From a virus: a stretch of 42,818 nt of DNA. The translations under genes were made by a program, and so were the position numbers. The stretch covers positions 1-42,818 of IMG/VR virus record IMGVR_UViG_3300008448_000191. One strand, written 5' to 3'. The notes under the pieces were generated by a model, which was not told the origin of the DNA, made no database searches, and saw only the letters and a list, made by a program, of their open reading frames with translations. Below, piece after piece: positions 7,627-27,726 of the stretch (position 1 is its first letter; each line of letters starts with the position of its first letter).

Positions 7627-8286
7627 CTACACATTAAAGATAGCGTCTATCTCTTCGTGGGTGGCGTCACTCCAGGGGTTTTGACTAAGTTTGAAATTAT
7701 TAGCAAACTGAGCCAGGTCATAAGGGCTTGTGTTTTCTTCTAGCTTCCTTATTGCTTTTACTTCATGAGGAGCAGCTGTATAGGAACGAAAAGCGGCCAG
7801 CAAAAGGTCAGTCGTTTCGCGTGGAACAGTCTTTACATCTTTAAGAAACAATTCAACTTCTTCACGACGGCGTTCTACCATGCCTCCGACAACATTGTGG
7901 TAATAGTCATAAATCCACTGATTCATTTCTTTTACAGTTCCAGGCCAGTCTTCAATTTCAACAAGATCTGGGATCGCACTGTAGAGGAAAGACTCCCAAC
8001 CAACCGAATGGATAAACGACAGCAACGCTTGTCGCATGTGAGTATCTAAGCCAAGATTTAACTTTTCTAAATTTTGATCAAGAACTGCAAGCTCATGGTA
8101 AAGATACTCCATGGCTTTGTGTTTTGTGCAGCGCTGTCCACGTTTTACCGGCTCTCCATCTGGGTAAAACTGTGTACCAAAACCGATGGTGTAAGGCTCA
8201 GCTTCAGTTACGGGATCTGCGTAGGCCTTTTCATTAAACCCCTCATGTTTACAAATGAGGCGTACTGCTTCACTGAAATCTGACAT
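7627..8286 (-). CDS. GH24-type lysozyme (endolysin)
   Basis: The product cleaves the peptidoglycan glycan strand at lysis. Starting at ATG 8286 (219 residues), it shows LICKHEGFNEKAYADP with the catalytic glutamate E15, D24 after the standard eight-residue spacing, and T33 in YTIGFGTQFY; the D-to-T spacing is three residues longer than in classical GH24 enzymes. The middle (MRQALLSFIHSVG, AIPDLVEIEDW) follows the T4-type fold. About 60 extra C-terminal residues (PYDLAQFANNF, DATHEEIDAIF) may bind the wall. No signal peptide is visible, so export would need a holin. It lies between the NblA-like gene and a string of small genes. Confidence 0.85.
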   Translation of the reverse strand: MSDFSEAVRLICKHEGFNEKAYADPVTEAEPYTIGFGTQFYPDGEPVKRGQRCTKHKAMEYLYHELAVLDQNLEKLNLGLDTHMRQALLSFIHSVGWESFLYSAIPDLVEIEDWPGTVKEMNQWIYDYYHNVVGGMVERRREEVELFLKDVKTVPRETTDLLLAAFRSYTAAPHEVKAIRKLEENTSPYDLAQFANNFKLSQNPWSDATHEEIDAIFNV

Positions 8287-8329
8287 GGGAGCAACTACTG
8301 TTACTCCCAATCATACACAATAATTTAGA

Positions 8330-14881: not shown

Positions 14882-15577
14882 TTACTGTCGGCCAGTTAAT
14901 TCTGTCAGGAACCGACTTACCGGAGTGTAGTACTCAGCATCAAATAGATTTTTGTTCATTTGACTTTGAGGTGGAGACATTAGCGACAGCAACTTTTGAT
15001 TCATGTTTTGATTACCGCCTGCCAGCATTTGTCCCATGAACATACCAAGTAAAGCCTGGGGATCAATAGAACTTTTAGCAGGGGCAGCTGCAGTGGGGGC
15101 AGGAGTAGAAGGTTGCTGAGTCAATGGATCTCCCAAGGTTGCTTGAGCAGCCTTGTAAAGAGAACCACCTTGTTTAAATTTTGGCAAGGAACTGGCAACA
15201 GAAGTACCAAACGAATCCTTGGCATTAAGATTTACGTTTGGATTCCCACCCAAAATCGTTGCATATGCACGATCAATTCCCATCTGACCAGGCTTATATC
15301 CACGGTCAGTAAGGAATTTTTCTACGGCGGGCAGCTGTTCTGCGATTGTGTAGTTACCTAGTTTATTTTTGTCTAGGTATTTTGCACGTTCTGGACCGCC
15401 AAATTGGATTAAGCCGTAATAGTTTCCACCGGCACCACCGTAAACATTAGGCCTGAATCCAGACTCTTGGTGAATAAGCGCACCAAACTCATAAGGGTTC
15501 AAGCCAAGACGTTGTGCTGATTGAAATACAGCAGCGCGGTCTTCTGGTTTTAGTGTTCCAATGCGTCCAGTACTCAT
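14882..15577 (-). CDS. Lytic transglycosylase-like virion hydrolase
   Basis: Residues 11-70 match the SLT/goose-lysozyme-like fold: helix AAVFQSAQRLGLNPYEFGAL, then IHQESGFRP with the presumed catalytic E38, then YYGLIQFGG at 53-61, the equivalent of the GLxQ motif. Such enzymes cut the glycan strand and, when placed among virion genes, usually open the wall during DNA injection. The C-terminal half is low complexity (Q, P, A, M, N) with a hydrophobic LLGMFMGQMLAGG stretch. An AAGG site precedes the ATG. Together with the M23 peptidase it gives the virion two wall-cutting activities. Confidence 0.78.
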   Translation of the reverse strand: MSTGRIGTLKPEDRAAVFQSAQRLGLNPYEFGALIHQESGFRPNVYGGAGGNYYGLIQFGGPERAKYLDKNKLGNYTIAEQLPAVEKFLTDRGYKPGQMGIDRAYATILGGNPNVNLNAKDSFGTSVASSLPKFKQGGSLYKAAQATLGDPLTQQPSTPAPTAAAPAKSSIDPQALLGMFMGQMLAGGNQNMNQKLLSLMSPPQSQMNKNLFDAEYYTPVSRFLTELTGRQ

Positions 15578-16913: not shown

Positions 16914-17429
16914 TTAATTTGATTCTAAATCAAGACACGCAAATTCTTTATAGAAAAGTCTTTGCGCATCTAGGGCAGCCTTCTTTGCTTCTTCCTCGGT
17001 CTTAAAGTTGCCTACGGTGATACGTTTACCTTCCAAAGTAACACGAACACGGTACAGCTCGTTATCTTTCCTTTGGCTATACCCAACAAAAATTTTGTTG
17101 TAGTTGTTTTCCGCCTCACTAGCCAACCTTAAATTTTCCCAGCGATTGTCTTGGGCATTTCTGTTTTTATGCTCAACCAGCAAAAGACCTGGATCTATAC
17201 CGGTCATCAATACCCAGGCAACTCGACTAATGTAATAGCTTTTCCCTTTATGTTTTATCGTCCACGTTTTGCGTCTTACCGGACCGCCAAGAGAACCGAT
17301 TGGTTTACCGATTTTTTGCTTATCAGCCTTGCAACGTGATTTAATTAAAAACAACTCACCTGTTTCTGGTATATATTCATAATATTCTTTTAACTCTTCA
17401 ATCGCCGGCAAGGGACAAGGGGCCACCAT
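16914..17429 (-). CDS. HNH homing endonuclease with AP2-like DNA-binding domain
   Basis: A 171-residue protein. The middle holds an HNH_3-type core: SRVAWVLMTG at 68-77, then EHKNRNAQDNRWENLRLAS with H87 and N99 as expected catalytic and metal-site residues. Residues about 113-165 (YRVRVTLEGKRITVGNF, then EEEAKKAALDAQRLFY) form an AP2-like DNA-binding domain. This HNH plus AP2 arrangement is classical for free-standing phage homing endonucleases. It is inserted between two late structural genes and is preceded by a 14-base-pair hairpin that ends three bases before its start codon. Confidence 0.88.
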   Translation of the reverse strand: MVAPCPLPAIEELKEYYEYIPETGELFLIKSRCKADKQKIGKPIGSLGGPVRRKTWTIKHKGKSYYISRVAWVLMTGIDPGLLLVEHKNRNAQDNRWENLRLASEAENNYNKIFVGYSQRKDNELYRVRVTLEGKRITVGNFKTEEEAKKAALDAQRLFYKEFACLDLESN

Positions 17430-17472: not shown

Positions 17473-17934
17473 TCATCGCCATAGCTCGTGAAGATATATG
17501 CGAGTGCCAACCGAGACATCGGCGGGTCCAGGTAATGCCTGGATAAACTCAGCACCAGAGCGTTCGTAACGATAACGAGCCTGGAACGGATCCTTGTAGT
17601 TAGGTACGTAAAGAATGCCAGCCAAACGGTTTGTTTCGTAGAGATAGATCTCGTCCCAAACTTTTAATGCTTCCTTGGCATTACTTGACCGAATAGTACG
17701 ATCAACGTCACCAGCAATACTTTCGAGTCGAGTAGAAGGTGAAGTGGCTACCTCAGTCTTTTTCTCGGCAGTATCACAACGACCAATTTGAATAGCAATT
17801 TTATCGTAGAAGTACGAATCTGGGATGGTATTCAGGGCTTCTTCCAGACGTGCGTAATCGCCCGCCGGAACAGAAACCGTGAAATAGCCCAGGTGATACC
17901 TGACCCTACTTTTGTCAAAGTCAGATAATTGCAC
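17473..17934 (-). CDS. Probable neck or head-completion protein (153 residues)
   Basis: The protein starts with GTG at 17934 and begins with a helical, charged segment (DFDKSRVRYHLGYFTVSVPAGDY), continues as mixed alpha/beta with an acidic-basic helix (SNAKEALKVWDEIYLYETNR), and ends in a compact YERSGAEFIQALPG region. No known domain is recognised. Its size, and its place between the M23 virion peptidase and the lytic transglycosylase group, fit a head-tail connector, which is inference. It ends directly at the hairpin ahead of the HNH/AP2 gene. Confidence 0.5.
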   Translation of the reverse strand: MQLSDFDKSRVRYHLGYFTVSVPAGDYARLEEALNTIPDSYFYDKIAIQIGRCDTAEKKTEVATSPSTRLESIAGDVDRTIRSSNAKEALKVWDEIYLYETNRLAGILYVPNYKDPFQARYRYERSGAEFIQALPGPADVSVGTRIYLHELWR

Positions 17935-17983: not shown

Positions 17984-18658
17984 TTAACCTTGGTAAGGAT
18001 TTGAGCTGATGTATTGCTCTAGCATTTCTTGTGCCAAACTGCGCCTGGGCGCCATAGCAGAAGCTGCCATCTGTTCAAACATAGACTGCTGCAAAGTCTT
18101 TTGCTTGGGTTGTGCCAGGGATGCTCCGTACATCATGGCTTGCACAAAAGAATCCATATTGGATCCAGTGTTTTGTGCGTTAGCAGTTGGCGTTTGATTG
18201 CTTGCGAATTCTGCAGCCTTGCCAAGGCTTGCCATGTGTCCGATACCTACTTCGTATTTGTTATCTCCTGTTTTAAATGTTGCCAGGTTTCCGTAACCAC
18301 CTTGATTGGCAAGGGGGGTAAACTTACCCGCACCTTCCATATAAACAGGAGTTCCCTGAGGAAGAGCCCAATCTTCACCTTGGTGGAAAGAAGATGCTCC
18401 AGCAGTTGGCGCAGTGCGAGGACCAAATTTAGATGTGACGGCTACGTTGGAAGCCGGGTTTAAAACTAATTGACCTTCTTTGTTTTTGATAATTGCAGGA
18501 ATTTTTTGCTCGCCAATACGCAACCCAGTTAAAGCACTACGAATAGTGCTCGGATCAATATGTTTTCCAGTGCCAAGGTCCTTTACATAGACGTGACCAT
18601 GCGGACCAGTGGAGGTTCCGGTACTGCCAATATTTCCTAAGAATGCAATTCCTGCCAT
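17984..18658 (-). CDS. M23-type metallopeptidase with circularly permuted catalytic domain
   Basis: M23 peptidases cut peptide cross-links of peptidoglycan using zinc bound by HxxxD and HxH. In the usual order HxxxD comes first and the STGPHLHFEV motif ends the domain. Here the protein opens with GSTGTSTGPHGHVYVKD (11-27; H20, H22) followed by GKHIDPSTI, and only later has SKFGPRTAP (76-84), FHQGEDW (91-97; H92, D96), GGYGNLATF (120-128) and VGIGHMASL (137-145; H141). All catalytic elements are present but in permuted order. The C-terminal 70 residues are flexible and helical (QKTLQQSMFEQMAAS). Likely a virion-borne wall hydrolase for entry. Confidence 0.78.
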   Translation of the reverse strand: MAGIAFLGNIGSTGTSTGPHGHVYVKDLGTGKHIDPSTIRSALTGLRIGEQKIPAIIKNKEGQLVLNPASNVAVTSKFGPRTAPTAGASSFHQGEDWALPQGTPVYMEGAGKFTPLANQGGYGNLATFKTGDNKYEVGIGHMASLGKAAEFASNQTPTANAQNTGSNMDSFVQAMMYGASLAQPKQKTLQQSMFEQMAASAMAPRRSLAQEMLEQYISSNPYQG

Positions 18659-18685: not shown

Positions 18686-18709
18686 AAAAAACCCCTGGTT
18701 TCCCAGGGG
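18686..18709 (-). terminator. Rho-independent terminator, minus strand
   Basis: CCCCTGG (18692-18698) pairs with CCAGGGG (18703-18709) around a four-base loop, and the minus strand continues into six T (A run at 18686-18691). It lies just upstream of the M23 gene start (18658), so it ends transcription arriving from the capsid genes before that gene unless read through. Confidence 0.8.
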
Positions 18710-18802
18710 CCAGTAGGAGACAAGTTAAACGCGGACTAAGTCGGCAGCAAGTACGGCAATAAAACGTTTCAGGTGTTATAGTTTTATTTTGCTATCTTAA
18801 AA

Positions 18803-19261
18803 ATGAAAAGAATTAATCCAAAAACTGGGGCATTTTTTAAACACGGCGACTGCAGGGAAGACGGCTTTATTTTTATTGGTTACAACTTTAAAAAAATTAA
18901 ACAAGACGGAACTTTTTTAGAGGTATGGATGAGTCCCGACCAACAAGAAAAGAAAAAAGCCTATGACAAAAAAAGATCTCAACGTTTGTCTTCTGAAAAC
19001 AGAAACTGGATGAACAATTTAAAAATAACAGAAGGTTGCGCATGCTGTGGGTATAACGAACACCCTGAGGGACTAGATTTTGATCATCTTTACGATAAAA
19101 AATTTAACATTGGACGAGGGGGTACGTTTAGCAAAAAAAGACTTGAAAAAGAAATAAAAAAATGCCAGGTTCTCTGTGGCACATGCCATCACATAAAAAC
19201 AAGAAATAAAGAAAAATTCAACGCCATAATGAAAAAGAGGGGTGTTACCCCTCTTGGTTGA
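18803..19261 (+). CDS. HNH endonuclease inserted against the late operon
   Basis: A 152-residue protein, lysine rich and AT-rich in its DNA compared with its neighbours. The HNH core is GCACCGYNEHPEGLDFDHLY (zinc cysteines at 79, 81 and 82; D94/H95) and KCQVLCGTCHHIKTRN (second cysteines at 121, 125 and 128). It is encoded on the plus strand between the HhH gene and the M23 gene, both minus, and lies between two minus-strand terminators, one of which overlaps its last codons. Opposite orientation, distinct composition and HNH identity point to a mobile, horizontally gained gene. Confidence 0.88.
   Translation: MKRINPKTGAFFKHGDCREDGFIFIGYNFKKIKQDGTFLEVWMSPDQQEKKKAYDKKRSQRLSSENRNWMNNLKITEGCACCGYNEHPEGLDFDHLYDKKFNIGRGGTFSKKRLEKEIKKCQVLCGTCHHIKTRNKEKFNAIMKKRGVTPLG
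19230..19255 (-). terminator. Terminator hairpin overlapping the end of the HNH gene
   Basis: AAGAGGGGT (19235-19243) and ACCCCTCTT (19247-19255) form a nine-base-pair stem with a GTT loop; on the minus strand it is followed by TTTTT and lies 20 bases after the stop of the HhH gene. The same bases encode KRGVTPL at the C-terminus of the plus-strand HNH protein. Confidence 0.82.
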
Positions 19262-19275
19262 GTTATGCGTTTAAA

Positions 19276-19689
19276 TCAGACCCTTATTAAATCGGCTGCC
19301 AAGACCGCACTCCAGTCAACTCTTTTGATTTGTTTCAACTGCTCAAGGCTGTTAAATCTCTCACCCGATAAGGACATCTGTAGATCTTTGATCTCTCGGG
19401 CAGTCTTCAGTCCAATGCCCTTGATATGATCTGCGATCATTTGGGCGGTGGCTGAGTTGATGTTCAAGCGAGTGTCCGGAGGAAAAGTACGTGGCTCTTC
19501 CTGTGCCGCCTTATCTTTTACTTGAAGAGCAGTCACCTTTTTGGTAGCTTGCTCATCAGGGATAAGTTCAGTTTTGTAAGCAGTGTAAAGGCGACCGTCC
19601 TGATCTTCGACCATGAACCAATCGCCATTATCCCATTCGCTTACGATCTTGACGCGAGCGCCTGTTTTTTTATGCTGATGAAGAATCAT
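19276..19689 (-). CDS. Helix-hairpin-helix (ComEA-like) protein
   Basis: A 137-residue protein with two parts. Residues 1-45 form a small beta-barrel-like segment (HKKTGARVKIVSEWDNGDWF, then GRLYTAYKTELIP) resembling SH3/KOW-type folds. Residues about 74-130 carry a ComEA-type helix-hairpin-helix: LNINSATAQMIADHIKGIG, then KTAREIKDL and the second helix FNSLEQLKQI. HhH domains bind DNA non-specifically. It lies next to the capsid genes and is followed by a strong terminator. A role in DNA packaging or maturation is conceivable but unproven. Confidence 0.72.
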   Translation of the reverse strand: MILHQHKKTGARVKIVSEWDNGDWFMVEDQDGRLYTAYKTELIPDEQATKKVTALQVKDKAAQEEPRTFPPDTRLNINSATAQMIADHIKGIGLKTAREIKDLQMSLSGERFNSLEQLKQIKRVDWSAVLAADLIRV

Positions 19690-20556: not shown

Positions 20557-21726
20557 TCAGATGGTGCCGTCGTCTTGCAGGAAGCTGAAGGCGGTGGTCA
20601 CGAAGTCCTTGTTCAGAATCTCGAAGCCAGCATACAGCTGCCAAATTAAGATGATAAAACGGCTGAAGTCGTCGTTATTGTTGATAAGCACCTGGGCATT
20701 AGGGCCGCCGATGCCAACGCCAATAGCTTGAGGACCGAAGAAGTAACCCTGAGCAACTTCGTAAGAAGTGTAGTTAGAGCTACCACCGATATTGAGGTCG
20801 GCAGTGATGCTCTTGGTCGGGAAGTTGGTCGACTCGAAGAACTTGACGCCTTCAAACTGCACGCCGGTCGGCATGACAGGTTCGCCAGCCAGGAAGTAAC
20901 CTTGACCAGCTTGGGGACCCTGGAAGAAGCTGGCGTTGTTAGGCAGCATGGGGTTGCCCATGTACATGCCTTGGCCGGGGTTACCAGAGTAACGAGCGAT
21001 CTCACGGAAGTCGGGGTCACGACGCAGGTGCATCATGAAAGTGGGATCGCAAATACAACGATACAGACCATCAGCGAAGGTCGGCACGTTGCGCTTACGC
21101 AGATCCTTAACAACGGTCAGCAGGTCGGTACGCACCTGGAACTGCTGCACTTGGGCTTCGTACTGAGCTTGGGTGTAGGATACACGACCAGAGGCGTCCT
21201 TAACTTTGCCGCCGGGGAAGTAGTAACCACCCTGGGTAGAGGAAGCGGCACCATTGGCTTCAGCTTTGGCAAGTTCGTCAATGAAGACGCGGTCGCGCCA
21301 ACGACGATAGTCATCAAGCAGCGTCAGGCTACCGATGGACTGGTGGAACATGTTGAGGTTGCCACTATCCAGCAGAAGGCGCTGAGCAGTGATCAGGGTC
21401 TCACGAGCAATCTTGAAGGTCGAAGGCTGGGTCGGATCGCCGGGGTCCGCAGGACCGGTGTATTCCTTAAGCACCACCAGGACTTTTTCCTTGGTGATGT
21501 TACGGCTGTTAGCGGTACCGATGGTTTGGTCGGCAATACGCTCACGGCTATCCTTAGTACCAGGGGTACCCCAGAACTTGTAGCGGTCTAACTGAACAGT
21601 TTGACCGGGCTGACGAGTGAAGTCGTGGACAACCACAGGCTCCACTGCCATTTCGGCAATGTAAGCAGGATGGGGCCGATAGAGTTCGGCGCCCAAAATC
21701 TTTGGAAAGTCGTTATCAATGAACAC
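20557..21726 (-). CDS. Major capsid protein
   Basis: The 389-residue protein starts with GTG at 21726, ten bases after a GGAGG site. It has the layout of HK97-fold coats of the N4-gp56/P22 type: N-terminal arm with DFTRQPGQTVQLDRYKFWG, then KEKVLVVLKEYTGP (the TVxLxEY-like strand), a long helix region (LLLDSGNLNMFHQSIG to FIDELAKAEANGA) and a C-terminal beta domain. It is placed after portal and probable scaffold, as expected. Third-position GC bias is strong, consistent with high expression, and also explains the long antisense frame at 20728-21591. The capsid call rests on order, length and fold texture; the exact family is less sure. Confidence 0.82.
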   Translation of the reverse strand: MFIDNDFPKILGAELYRPHPAYIAEMAVEPVVVHDFTRQPGQTVQLDRYKFWGTPGTKDSRERIADQTIGTANSRNITKEKVLVVLKEYTGPADPGDPTQPSTFKIARETLITAQRLLLDSGNLNMFHQSIGSLTLLDDYRRWRDRVFIDELAKAEANGAASSTQGGYYFPGGKVKDASGRVSYTQAQYEAQVQQFQVRTDLLTVVKDLRKRNVPTFADGLYRCICDPTFMMHLRRDPDFREIARYSGNPGQGMYMGNPMLPNNASFFQGPQAGQGYFLAGEPVMPTGVQFEGVKFFESTNFPTKSITADLNIGGSSNYTSYEVAQGYFFGPQAIGVGIGGPNAQVLINNNDDFSRFIILIWQLYAGFEILNKDFVTTAFSFLQDDGTI

Positions 21727-22458: not shown

Positions 22459-23421
22459 TCACTCCATCACAAACAGTTTGTTTGCAACCACGTTGGGCTG
22501 GGCATAGTTCAGAAGACGCCAAGCGTTTTCAGGGCTAGTTTCCATTTGTTGCTTAAAGCTGCCCCAGAAGTTTTCAGGTTGCTGAGGAGCAGAAGCAGCA
22601 GGAGGAGCAGGGAACTCACCGTAGTTAGCTTGAACCGGAGCGGTGGGATAACCACGGGTTTCCAGTTGAGCTTCATTTTCGTACACGGGGTACGGACCTT
22701 CAGGACCAAAGAACTTCAGCGTGTAATCGCTAAGAACATCAGGGTTGGTCAGGATTTCGTTATAAGCCAGATTCTCGGTATGCTCAGCAACCGCAAAATC
22801 GGCATAACCACCAATCAGATTTTGTGCACGTTGGCCCCAGGCTACGGCACTATCGAGCATTCCTTCGAGTTGAAGGGCGTACTGGTTTAGCAGAGCCGGA
22901 GCTTCCACCCCGTACGCGTCGATCACCACTCGGCTTTCCTGGCTCAGACCCAGGTAATCCGCTACGTCCGCCAAGGAGGGACTCGAGGAAGTTTGGGAAG
23001 AGCTGGGCAATGAGGCCGGGTTGGTTAATGAGGTCGGGGCTGCCGAGTTCCAGGTAGCTGGGCTGCTGGGCTGTCCGTAATTGGCCGGGGTATAGGTCGT
23101 CGGAGCTGATTGTTGACCCTGGAACGGGGATTGAACTGGTGCGCTCAGCAGGTTCACCACCTTGTTGAACGCCGATTCCCATGGATTCCCCTGAGGAGCT
23201 TCCGCCGGTTGGGATTGGGGGGCGTACTGAGTAGGGGCGGATTGGTAGCTGATATTCGCTTGAGGAATCGCTTGGGGGTAAGCGGTCCCCACTTGGTACG
23301 CCACCGGAGCCGCTTGGTAGCTGCTGGGTGCCGGAGCTGCTGCTGTCACGTAGCTGCTCGGGGCTACTGACGGCTGTGCGGGGCTCATCTGTGGGATCGA
23401 TTGGACGGTAGCGTCCTGCAT
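22459..23421 (-). CDS. Probable scaffold or head assembly protein, nested in the portal gene
   Basis: A 320-residue protein. Its ATG at 23421 has a textbook AAGGAG site seven bases upstream, lying inside the portal reading frame, so the start is well supported although the first 190 residues share DNA with the portal C-terminus in another frame. Residues 1-145 are A/P/Q/S/Y rich and disordered; residues 148-260 are acidic and helical (SLADVADYLGLSQESRVVID, VAWGQRAQNLIGGYADFAVA); the C-terminus is proline rich then charged. Position between portal and capsid and the acidic helical character suggest a scaffold. Confidence 0.65.
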   Translation of the reverse strand: MQDATVQSIPQMSPAQPSVAPSSYVTAAAPAPSSYQAAPVAYQVGTAYPQAIPQANISYQSAPTQYAPQSQPAEAPQGNPWESAFNKVVNLLSAPVQSPFQGQQSAPTTYTPANYGQPSSPATWNSAAPTSLTNPASLPSSSQTSSSPSLADVADYLGLSQESRVVIDAYGVEAPALLNQYALQLEGMLDSAVAWGQRAQNLIGGYADFAVAEHTENLAYNEILTNPDVLSDYTLKFFGPEGPYPVYENEAQLETRGYPTAPVQANYGEFPAPPAASAPQQPENFWGSFKQQMETSPENAWRLLNYAQPNVVANKLFVME

Positions 23422-25168
23422 AACTCATCTCCTTTTGTAAAGCTTCTAGCGTTCGATACAGATACGGGGTTAAATCCAATCTTGGATCCGCAGCCATCGG
23501 AAGATCCGGTGATTGCGGGTGGGGCGTCTGCATCATTCCCCCCACTAGCTTGGCAAACTGAGAGTAAGCACTCTGCAATTCGTTAACCATCCTGAACGGG
23601 AACCCAGATAACATCTCGGCCCGTTCCTCATCCGTCTTAGACGGGAAGAGGTATTTCAGTGCTTCAATGCTATCAACACCTAATTCTTGCAGGTTACGCA
23701 CCACAATGGAGTTGTTGAGGATATCTTGTGTCGAGTCTTCGTACACAGGACCTAGCCAACGCCAAAGCATTGTGACATCCCCGTCAGGAATCAAGCCCAT
23801 GACTCCAGGTGGAATCTGCTGGGCCTGAACACAAGCCATCATTAACTGTTTAACTTTATCGTTATGTTGCTTAAGCGCCTCTTCATATGCGGCAACTTCT
23901 TCTTCGGATGAGCCCTTAGAAGGTGCAACAGGTTTCTCAAGTCCGGCTGCTTGTGCCAGGGTGTTCTTGAATAGTTGCTCTTCTTGGTAAACAATCAATT
24001 CAAGGCAACGGCAGATGCCATGCGTATAGATGGCATTTGCTTTTTTCTTGGAAGTTGCGGAAACACGTCCAAACAGCGACTTGTATTCCGTTGCTGTTAC
24101 GCCAGCAGAAATTGAAAGTTCATCAACGCCACCAAGTGCGGTGCGAATCTCTTCTCGGTACTGCCGTGCAAATGCGTTTTGGTCACCAGTGATGGCATCT
24201 GGAACAATGTAGCCAACACGGTCGTTTGGTTCCAGGTTAGCAATGACGCGTGGCACGCGGATAGTACCGTCAACTCCACGACTGATGGGATCAGACTTAA
24301 ACGTCGACCGGCTTAATGCACTGGGACTATTGAAACCAGAGTTTGCAGCAATGGAGGGGCGCTGAATAGTGGTGTCACCCCCAGCTTCCATCAGGTCCGT
24401 TTTGGGACGTGATGAGAGAAGTGTTGGGTTACCAAAGAACTGCACGTTCTTGCGCATCGTGCGAACCATTTCATCATGAATGACGATATGGTTGGCCATC
24501 GAATCAAAATCTCCGACCCCTTCGGTAGAGAAGCCTTTGGGGTTGTTGAAGATTTCAACGCAAGGGATAAAGCCTAACGTATTTTTAAACGTTTTAGTTT
24601 TCCCTGGCACTGCATAGGAAGGCATGTCAAATGACATTTCACCTTCGGAGTGAGTTTCTTCAATTTCATCAGCTTTAATAGAAAGCCTAATGTAACGCTT
24701 GGCACCTTGGTCGCCTGTTACTGCACCACCAGTGATGCTCTTGATGTTGATATTGTCGTTTAAACCAAAGCCCTTGCGGACTTTGTAACTGTAGATGATC
24801 ACCACCTCATCCAGCTCACCGTCTACGTTGTAATAAGAACGGTATTCGTGAGCACGGAAGTAGTAAAGGCGATAGCTTACCTTAGTAGGACGGATATAAA
24901 AAAGACCCTTCCCGTCACACAAGAAGTATTCCCAAATGGAATCCAGGCGGATATCCATCTTGTTGTACTTCAGTACACGGTCGAGAAAGTCTTTGCGCTG
25001 TGCACCAAAGTTGTCTTGAGACGGGAAGAATTCAACTCCTTGGCGAATGCCAAAAAGTTTCATCTGAGCAATGTGAGAAGCAATGATGCCCGTGTCGACG
25101 CCAACACTCCCATCTTTCTCAAGATAGGAATTAACCATTTCCTTAAGTCGACTTACAGCGTCAGCCAC
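22850..25168 (-). CDS. Portal protein with an overprinted C-terminal extension
   Basis: The 772-residue protein starts with GTG at 25168, five bases after AGAGGAG. Residues 1-560 look like a podovirus-type portal: RVLKYNKMDIRLDSIWEYFL, YYFRAHEYRSYYNVDG, MANHIVIHDEMVRTMRKNVQ, then GGVDELSISAGVTATEYKS, the long-helix region that binds neighbouring subunits. It lies downstream of the large terminase and upstream of the capsid gene, as a portal should. Residues about 583-772 are S/G/P/R rich, apparently disordered, and encoded in the same DNA as the next gene's N-terminus. Portals form the dodecameric DNA gate of the capsid. Confidence 0.82.
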   Translation of the reverse strand: MADAVSRLKEMVNSYLEKDGSVGVDTGIIASHIAQMKLFGIRQGVEFFPSQDNFGAQRKDFLDRVLKYNKMDIRLDSIWEYFLCDGKGLFYIRPTKVSYRLYYFRAHEYRSYYNVDGELDEVVIIYSYKVRKGFGLNDNINIKSITGGAVTGDQGAKRYIRLSIKADEIEETHSEGEMSFDMPSYAVPGKTKTFKNTLGFIPCVEIFNNPKGFSTEGVGDFDSMANHIVIHDEMVRTMRKNVQFFGNPTLLSSRPKTDLMEAGGDTTIQRPSIAANSGFNSPSALSRSTFKSDPISRGVDGTIRVPRVIANLEPNDRVGYIVPDAITGDQNAFARQYREEIRTALGGVDELSISAGVTATEYKSLFGRVSATSKKKANAIYTHGICRCLELIVYQEEQLFKNTLAQAAGLEKPVAPSKGSSEEEVAAYEEALKQHNDKVKQLMMACVQAQQIPPGVMGLIPDGDVTMLWRWLGPVYEDSTQDILNNSIVVRNLQELGVDSIEALKYLFPSKTDEERAEMLSGFPFRMVNELQSAYSQFAKLVGGMMQTPHPQSPDLPMAADPRLDLTPYLYRTLEALQKEMSYAGRYRPIDPTDEPRTAVSSPEQLRDSSSSGTQQLPSGSGGVPSGDRLPPSDSSSEYQLPIRPYSVRPPIPTGGSSSGESMGIGVQQGGEPAERTSSIPVPGSTISSDDLYPGQLRTAQQPSYLELGSPDLINQPGLIAQLFPNFLESLLGGRSGLPGSEPGKPSGDRRVRGGSSGSAKPVRPSTRRNAR

Positions 25169-26199: not shown

Positions 26200-27726
26200 T
26201 CAGTAATCAAGCTGCAATTGTCCCTTCCTTGCCAGGCCTGTTACCAACCAGACAAGTGCATCAACACAGTCATCGTGACTACTGACACCAAAGTTGGTTA
26301 GTTCTTCAAACATCGCAGTGAAGTTACGGTAGCGATTGAAAATAATCTTACGATCTTCAAACATGCCGATAATTCCACGGAAACGCGCCAGCTTATCTGC
26401 GCGGAATCCTTTGACGGGGTGCCAGATCAAGTTATACAATCCTTCGTTACTTAAACAAACACGCTTAAAGTCTGCTTCTAGCGATGCTTGGTATTGAACA
26501 GCTTCGGACCATATATCGCAAGTTGAATAAGTAGGGAAATAATTGCCACTGTCATCACGACCAAGAATAGACCAATCATTGAGAAGCTCCTTCATTGCAT
26601 CTAGTTTTTCCAAATTACCCATTACTCGAATACGTCGGTAATCGATAATATGAATGCGGTCGCCAATGCGACCACCAAGGACCATGACTGTGTAATCGTT
26701 CTTTTCCTTGATGCCAGCAGACAAGTCAACGCCAATACCAAGGGCATCGAACTCTGTGGAGATTTCAGCTTTGACAATCAATTCAGGTGCCAACGAAAGT
26801 TCGTTTTGCCTGATAATTTGATTCATGTACTGGAACGAAAAAGCAATAGGCGCTTGTCGTTTCTTTTCTTTTAAATAGTCCAATGACCACATCTCTGGCC
26901 AGTAAGACATCTCTTCACCGGTCTTAGGGTCATTGTAAATTGCTGACAGAATAATCTGCTGCCAATTGTTTTGTTCGTTGAACGTAGTGGAGTGAATGTC
27001 ATCATGCCTGAAGCGGGTACCAAGGCAGATGGCACGTGCTCCTTCAAACATCGTTGGTGCGATCACCGCGTTCCAGTTGTCCTGCATCATTTTTCTGATG
27101 TCAGGGTTTGCAATATCAGCGGCTGATTTGATGGCGTCATCAATCATTACCAAGTGCGAACGCTTGGAGGTCACTGAACCTTTTAAGCCTGCCGCACAAA
27201 GCGTAAATTGTTCGTCACCGGTTACGTCGATGCCGGCAAACTTATGGTCAATAGACCAATACTCATTACTGGTTACGTTCTTAAGAAGACGTACTGTTGG
27301 AAAGACTTCTTGATATCGTTTGCTTTCAATGATTCGTTTGATTGTTGCAGACTTAGAGCGTGCAATATCAACGGTATAAGAAAGGTAAAGAATCTGCAGA
27401 GGTAACTTAGCTGTCGTATGGATGCCAATTGCCCAGGCAGTTAACAAGCCAAGTACAGTGCTTTTCGCTGAACCACGAGGAGCAAGTAGGTCAACGTTAG
27501 GCCCAGCAATTTTAATTAGACAGGAACTATCTTGATCTGTTACGAACTTACGGTGCCACTCTTTGTGGTGTTCCGCTGGAGGTTTATCGGCTACATACTC
27601 ACAGAAATAACCGAAGTCATCCCTTGCACGTTGGAGTGAATCCTCGTTCTTATTTTCCCTTACTTTGTAGTTCTTGGAGGCAGCACGTGCGTTGCGCCTG
27701 TAAGCAAGGTGAAGATAAGAAGGCAC
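26200..27726 (-). CDS. terL: Terminase large subunit (packaging ATPase/nuclease)
   Basis: The 508-residue protein drives DNA into the capsid. The Walker A motif APRGSAKST is at 82-90, Walker B HLVMIDDAI at 191-199 (D196, D197), and coupling motif CLGTRFRHDDIH near 234-245. The C-terminal nuclease domain has GVDLSAG with D334 and a late DDCVDALVWL with the expected acidic residues. The start is GTG at 27726; no in-frame ATG lies nearby. It is preceded by small genes that may include the small subunit and followed by the membrane coiled-coil gene. Length is normal for the family. Confidence 0.93.
   Translation of the reverse strand: MPSYLHLAYRRNARAASKNYKVRENKNEDSLQRARDDFGYFCEYVADKPPAEHHKEWHRKFVTDQDSSCLIKIAGPNVDLLAPRGSAKSTVLGLLTAWAIGIHTTAKLPLQILYLSYTVDIARSKSATIKRIIESKRYQEVFPTVRLLKNVTSNEYWSIDHKFAGIDVTGDEQFTLCAAGLKGSVTSKRSHLVMIDDAIKSAADIANPDIRKMMQDNWNAVIAPTMFEGARAICLGTRFRHDDIHSTTFNEQNNWQQIILSAIYNDPKTGEEMSYWPEMWSLDYLKEKKRQAPIAFSFQYMNQIIRQNELSLAPELIVKAEISTEFDALGIGVDLSAGIKEKNDYTVMVLGGRIGDRIHIIDYRRIRVMGNLEKLDAMKELLNDWSILGRDDSGNYFPTYSTCDIWSEAVQYQASLEADFKRVCLSNEGLYNLIWHPVKGFRADKLARFRGIIGMFEDRKIIFNRYRNFTAMFEELTNFGVSSHDDCVDALVWLVTGLARKGQLQLDY

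Follow-up and report, generated by a model that had tools for sequence, protein, structure and literature searches.

One gene in the window, by which we mean the whole 42,818-nucleotide stretch of viral DNA analysed here (IMG/VR record IMGVR_UViG_3300008448_000191), very probably encodes a circularly permuted zinc metallo-endopeptidase of the M23/LytM type; the peptidase activity and the zinc are what we infer for it. The virus itself is related to a freshwater cyanophage. A preliminary description, made from the letters alone, had proposed such a permutation, and the proposal is now supported by profile comparisons and PDB pairings, by the conservation of the arrangement in relatives and by the predicted fold.

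Exchanged order of the two M23 halves

Unaltered phage proteins were searched with a profile of 129 positions, built from 22 ordinary-order M23 domains found in bacterial genomes. The window protein gave two separate matches, residues 6–41 to profile positions 88–121 (single-comparison E 6.2e-8) and residues 72–144 to positions 3–74 (single-comparison E 3.2e-15; bit scores in Table 1). With the profile joined to itself, the two merge into one continuous match from profile position 88 to 203 over residues 6–144, scoring 65.8 bits against 42.4 bits for the better half. In all, 106 of the 129 profile positions map onto the window protein, with both M23 halves present, swapped, contiguous and near-complete. 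The continuous match skips only positions 75–87, which correspond to the loop following the strand that bears the second catalytic histidine, and the new ends of the chain lie there.

The doubled profile gave a higher full score than the single one for all 39 permuted rows tested, and held-out ordinary domains (12 listed of 70) presented single matches that scored about 1 bit lower with it. Taken alone, residues 1–60 reach 22.9 bits against the ordinary M23 profile; shuffling gave at best 8.8 bits in 2000 trials with this segment (1882 gave a score) and 10.2 bits in 2000 trials with the whole protein (1686 gave a score). For relatives with an aspartate at position 22 (the Asp type described below), the first half alone scores weakly or not significantly (-3.1 bits in S-EIV1, 6.4 in Acinetobacter and 10.5 in Moraxella), so that the order in this type is read from its alignment with the branch of the window protein.

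Known structures present the same pairing. In a single-sequence search of the PDB, residues 60–147 matched residues 214–300 of 3slu and residues 5–39 matched residues 309–341 of that chain, with an equally swapped pairing in 6muk and 6smk; a family-profile search paired both halves in swapped order in 9m7n. Second-half matches to single chains are weak alone (E about 3), and the shorter half is not significant alone in any of these four entries, the argument being the consistency of the swapped pairing. Pfam detects M23 in the second part only (residues 91–165, profile 2–76 of 96, 34.7 bits for a cut-off of 28.7), and PHROGs assigns a different family to each half, phrog_7767 to residues 7–45 (E 2.6e-7) and phrog_37190 to residues 71–169 (E 1.6e-7). 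The permutation explains why phage enzymes of this type are half-annotated or missed.

All motifs quoted in the preliminary description were recovered at the residues given there: GSTGTSTGPHGH at 11–22, SKFGPR at 76–81, FHQGED at 91–96, GGYGN at 120–124 and GIGH at 138–141. Its uninterrupted open reading frame of 224 amino acids also stands, with the strand corrected to minus, since the plus-strand reading is interrupted by stops. The linker, formerly placed at residues 37–75, is shortened by the profile alignment to about residues 42–71, because GKHIDP aligns with the M23 C-terminal half.

Table 1. Parts of the permuted M23 gene and neighbouring features, in window positions.
Feature	Positions	Strand	Remarks
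Whole gene, 224 aa + stop	17984..18658	-	permuted M23 domain (about residues 1–154) and C-terminal tail
Residues 6–41, M23 C-terminal half	18536..18643	-	GxTGxSTGPHxH strand and DP turn; profile 88–121, 18.8 bits
His20	18599-18601	-	within M23 C-terminal half
His22	18593-18595	-	within M23 C-terminal half
Residues 42–71, linker from old C-terminus to old N-terminus	18446..18535	-	predicted well ordered
Residues 72–144, M23 N-terminal half	18227..18445	-	profile 3–74, 42.4 bits
His92	18383-18385	-	within M23 N-terminal half
Asp96	18371-18373	-	within M23 N-terminal half
His141	18236-18238	-	within M23 N-terminal half
Residues 155–224, variable tail	17987..18196	-	partly helical, low predicted confidence
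Terminator-like hairpin directly before gene	18690..18711	-	5 such sites in region against 2.5 expected (shuffles)
Terminase large subunit	26200-27726	-	
Virion structural or portal-like protein	22850-25168	-	
Major head protein	20557-21726	-	
Helix-hairpin-helix gene	19276-19689	-	below Pfam cut-off
phrog_29158 gene, after peptidase gene	17473-17934	-	
Second HNH gene near peptidase gene	16914-17429	-	HNH_3, E 1.2e-11; weak AP2 match
Gene with tail-lysozyme and transglycosylase matches	14882-15577		both matches sub-threshold
Separate endolysin-type gene	7627-8310		phrog_7, E 1.3e-28

An unusual order in a domain that begins no more than 6 residues from the start codon could also result from truncation or faulty assembly of an M23 protein, ordinary-order or tandem, an origin that we consider extremely improbable. 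The start codon is preceded by only 2 to 4 open codons in ten relatives (2 in L018–L020, L023 and L024; 3 in L016; 4 in L009, L010, L012 and L013), and the terminator-like hairpin directly before the window gene argues against a missing 5' part. Moreover, the same order recurs in the independent records described below, and among them this gene never has the ordinary order. The relatives were also searched for a complete domain in standard order from which the window gene could derive by deletion, and none was found; a search of the record for a second M23 match returned the window protein alone.

Predicted fold

AlphaFold2 modelled residues 1–154 (57 sequences) as one domain with a mean pLDDT of 93.4 and a pTM of 0.87, the five models ranging from 91.4 to 93.4, and with linker residues 42–71 well ordered. 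The full protein (17 sequences) reached a pLDDT of 76.1 and a pTM of 0.64, with a tail of low confidence. Given the whole-domain pTM, the N-terminal STGPHGH strand likely packs against the HxxxD site in the predicted structure. The separate M23 matches of the two halves would also suit a domain-swapped or split enzyme, in which each active site borrows the HxH segment of a neighbouring chain and the single chain is not closed. We regard such an arrangement as quite unlikely, for the model of one chain alone is a single confident domain whose linker is ordered, and the record holds no second M23 match that could serve as the partner gene.

Structural comparison of the model with 996 chains placed M23 proteins in all of the top twelve entries, the first non-M23 entry having a Z of 3.6. 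Lysostaphin matched with a Z of 6.2 and an rmsd of 2.4 Å over 88 residues, and EnpA, LytM, StM23, Csd3, ShyA, DipM, NMB0315 and LytU were also among the twelve; Z values up to 6.2 fall in the grey zone below 8. Of the twelve best alignments, eleven begin at model residues 38–68 and the remaining one at residue 1; their ends all fall at 152–153, and they cover the N-terminal half of the M23 chains, never aligning both halves together. They end at chain residue 273 in LytM and 342 in lysostaphin, ahead of the HxH motif, a stop to be expected when a sequential aligner meets a permuted domain. Foldseek gave no PDB match below E 0.001 with either the full protein or the domain alone, and since a sequential search is at a disadvantage with a permuted topology, we read this as uninformative and as no support. 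Against viral models it returned one significant match (A0A510E7V3_3, E 3.1e-7). A mean-field coupling analysis, aimed at strand closure, had 32.5 effective sequences, and its top pairs are not interpretable.

On this reading, the ancestral C-terminal half, with the HxH strand and the DP turn, is now first in the chain. The old ends are joined by the linker of about 30 residues, followed by the N-terminal half with HxxxD, GGYGN and GIGH, and the new ends lie in the loop after the second catalytic histidine, where about 13 positions have been lost. The strands would then reassemble into the usual M23 sheet, with zinc held by His92, Asp96 and His22 (Asp22 in the sister branch) and water activated by His20 and His141.

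A permuted phage family and its putative zinc ligands

Viral contigs and phage records yielded at least 220 phage ORFs with the permuted order, counting the best 80 of 142 and the best 80 of 536 relatives in two of the viral scans. The figure corresponds to 223 rows classed as full minus the ordinary-order L027, L074 and L364. They hold 169 different domain sequences, which include flanking residues so that a few may differ there only, and 57 of the 169 are below 85% identity to each other. On these sequence counts the permuted M23 is a widespread phage family and not a single case. An earlier motif-based count of viral loci (114 permuted, 2 ordinary and 18 unclassified of 134) was replaced by the profile-based one because the motif missed S-EIV1-type members.

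Some loci deviate in the extent of the gene. The tail-protein ORF of Moraxella L389, also uncounted, ends within the permuted domain, and in the Moraxella phages Mcat18, Mcat21 and Mcat22 the tail-protein gene is broken in the permuted domain or close to it, with matches in two pieces over two annotated genes. L021 (5001–5705) has 154 open in-frame codons before its start, unlike its relatives, perhaps through fusion with the upstream gene.

Bacterial genomes were also surveyed. Among 369 genomes of the class of Acinetobacter, 85 matched at E <= 1e-8, and two matches span from model position 25 or lower to 120 or higher, one in the seed Acinetobacter genome and the other in L364, which has the ordinary order. 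Because scoring was limited to ten candidates per genome, the rarity is only a rough estimate. Of the best 80 of 309 relatives in a genome collection, six are permuted by motif, all from Acinetobacter.

According to the available part of a review of the family (PMC9662197), M23 enzymes are defined by an H(x)nD motif and an HxH motif whose second histidine is a zinc ligand. Ordinary members also carry a further histidine close to the active water, some 30 residues ahead of HxH. As had been claimed, the window protein keeps all catalytic elements: His20, His22, His92, Asp96 and His141. The H(x)nD pair, His92 and Asp96, is kept in 169/169 domain sequences, as are His20 and His141; the latter aligns with the further histidine and comes after HxH in the permuted chain. 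Position 22 is His in 51 sequences and Asp in 118, with nothing else, which gives HxH in the window protein and the other sequences of its branch (the His type) and HxD in the remainder. The split is numerically the same at position 24 (51 Tyr, 118 Arg). Synechococcus phage S-EIV1 belongs to the Asp type, together with proteins of the tail or tape measure from phages of Acinetobacter and Moraxella; none of the three Asp-type members tried with Pfam, S-EIV1's included, gave an M23 match. The 92 ordinary domains collected all have H(x)nD before HxH, an order that the review's definition does not itself require. The window protein has the reverse, and it is therefore filed as part of a permuted branch homologous to M23 rather than as an ordinary member.

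A tree was computed over common profile columns from 64 thinned rows, namely 31 of the 57 permuted representatives and 33 of the 92 ordinary rows left after identity thinning; with 119 columns, many of its forks are not settled. One branch separates permuted from ordinary domains (99/95), and the Asp and His types are each set apart by a branch of their own (98/91 and 95/78). A single origin of the permutation is compatible with these data, which do not prove it. The likely route would be a one-time duplication of an M23 domain with subsequent loss of the outer halves; no intermediate of it was found. The aspartate ligand is not bound to the permutation, as two ordinary-order M23 sequences from an Actinobacteria genome, L211/L383 (one sequence) and L385, carry HxDxR. 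These two, with HxDxR instead of HxHxE, also share an APxAGASSFH stretch with the permuted family.

Taken globally, we lean towards a wider picture in which one old permutation of M23 founded a phage peptidase lineage, now in cyanophages and in the tape measures of Gammaproteobacteria phages. In one main branch the third zinc ligand would have changed from His to Asp, invariably accompanied by a Tyr-to-Arg change two positions further along, and the domain, with its ends side by side, could have come to sit mid-chain in a tape measure or to act as a cassette that can be swapped on a virion anchor.

Genomic setting, function and known systems

The homologous domains within tape-measure proteins and the block of head and tail genes around the window gene (Table 1) suggest a virion location. 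The most likely role would be that of an entry enzyme associated with the virion, attached through its own C-terminal tail (residues 155–224, a possible anchor) and directed at the peptidoglycan cross-links of a cyanobacterial host. The same permuted enzyme might instead act in lysis at the end of infection, a use that we hold to be possible and the less probable one: it would fit a stand-alone gene of 224 amino acids behind a terminator-like hairpin, and several matched PHROGs families are named endolysin. Speaking against it, the window has a separate endolysin-type gene, the permuted gene sits in the head/tail block, and its relatives are found within proteins of the tail or the tape measure.

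Next to the peptidase gene, an HNH-like ORF with a Cys/His pattern and no Pfam match (18803–19261, plus strand) lies between it and the helix-hairpin-helix gene. The 3' end of the latter (AVLAADL-RV) is duplicated across this ORF, at 18725–18769 and 19276–19320 on the minus strand, as if a mobile endonuclease gene had arrived carrying its own copy of that end.

The tail of S-EIV1 was found at five loci. One (L468) carries a permuted M23, and the other four (L465–L467 and L469; L068, L070 and L071 are three of these contigs) keep the upstream leader and the tail around another module, which begins after 'MA' and contains HxxGxAxD and HxH motifs. These motifs presumably mark a resemblance to M15/LAS peptidases. 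Of three modules tried with Pfam, two matched Extensin-like_C weakly (E 0.17 and 0.35) and the third nothing; PHROGs gave no match in two tried and the PDB none in one. As read from these loci, S-EIV1-like phages exchange cassettes, a permuted M23 for a putative zinc peptidase module, and so clean a swap speaks for a peptidase function of the permuted domain, mounted on an anchor common to both. Alternatively, the M23 fold might have lost its catalysis and serve for structure or binding, as with the degenerate LytM regulators that bacteria have. Such a fold would have precedents, as degenerate M23 folds with other roles appear in the available part of PMC9662197, and the zinc ligand is indeed changed in the Asp-type branch. 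We find it unlikely for this family, where four catalytic residues are invariant in 169/169 sequences, the ligand position is only ever His or Asp, and four of the five loci with the S-EIV1 tail carry a module with peptidase-like motifs in its place.

The permuted phage-borne M23 branch is not described in the literature searched, which lay outside subscription papers and preprints and contained no permuted M23. Judging by titles and abstracts, 'circularly permuted' refers to genome ends in the phage papers inspected, and the available part of PMC9662197 does not mention permutation. M23 is a very common wall-hydrolase fold, and a natural, conserved permutant shows that it tolerates new ends near the active site, offering a natural template for mid-chain insertion of the domain. 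In addition, the other four catalytic residues stay fixed across the natural His/Asp split at the zinc ligand, so that what this ligand does can be tested directly.

NlpC/P60 peptidases are cysteine enzymes with a fold unrelated to M23. Their circularly permuted forms (LRAT-like, YaeF), covered in the available part of PMC6403190, are a natural precedent for permutation in wall-peptidase folds. With ordinary M23B enzymes (LytM, lysostaphin, EnpA, ShyA and NMB0315) the permuted family has in common H(x)3D, HxH, the third histidine, GGYGN and the DP turn. It differs from them in its swapped halves, in the loss of loop positions 75–87, in a new linker and in having HxHxY or HxDxR in place of HxHxE. 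Among the phage proteins, AHV82231 of S-EIV1, a phage from an arctic lake, is annotated 'peptidase M23 family' and is a full-length homologue with the same permuted order and homologous neighbours; it shares 30% identity, has Asp at position 22 and lacks a Pfam M23 match. Finally, the tape-measure and tail proteins of Acinetobacter and Moraxella phages (e.g. WDS61527.1 and AKI27839.1) have the same permuted order and catalytic set, and differ in carrying an Asp-type domain mid-chain within about 1500 amino acids, with a linker shorter than residues 42–71 of the window protein.
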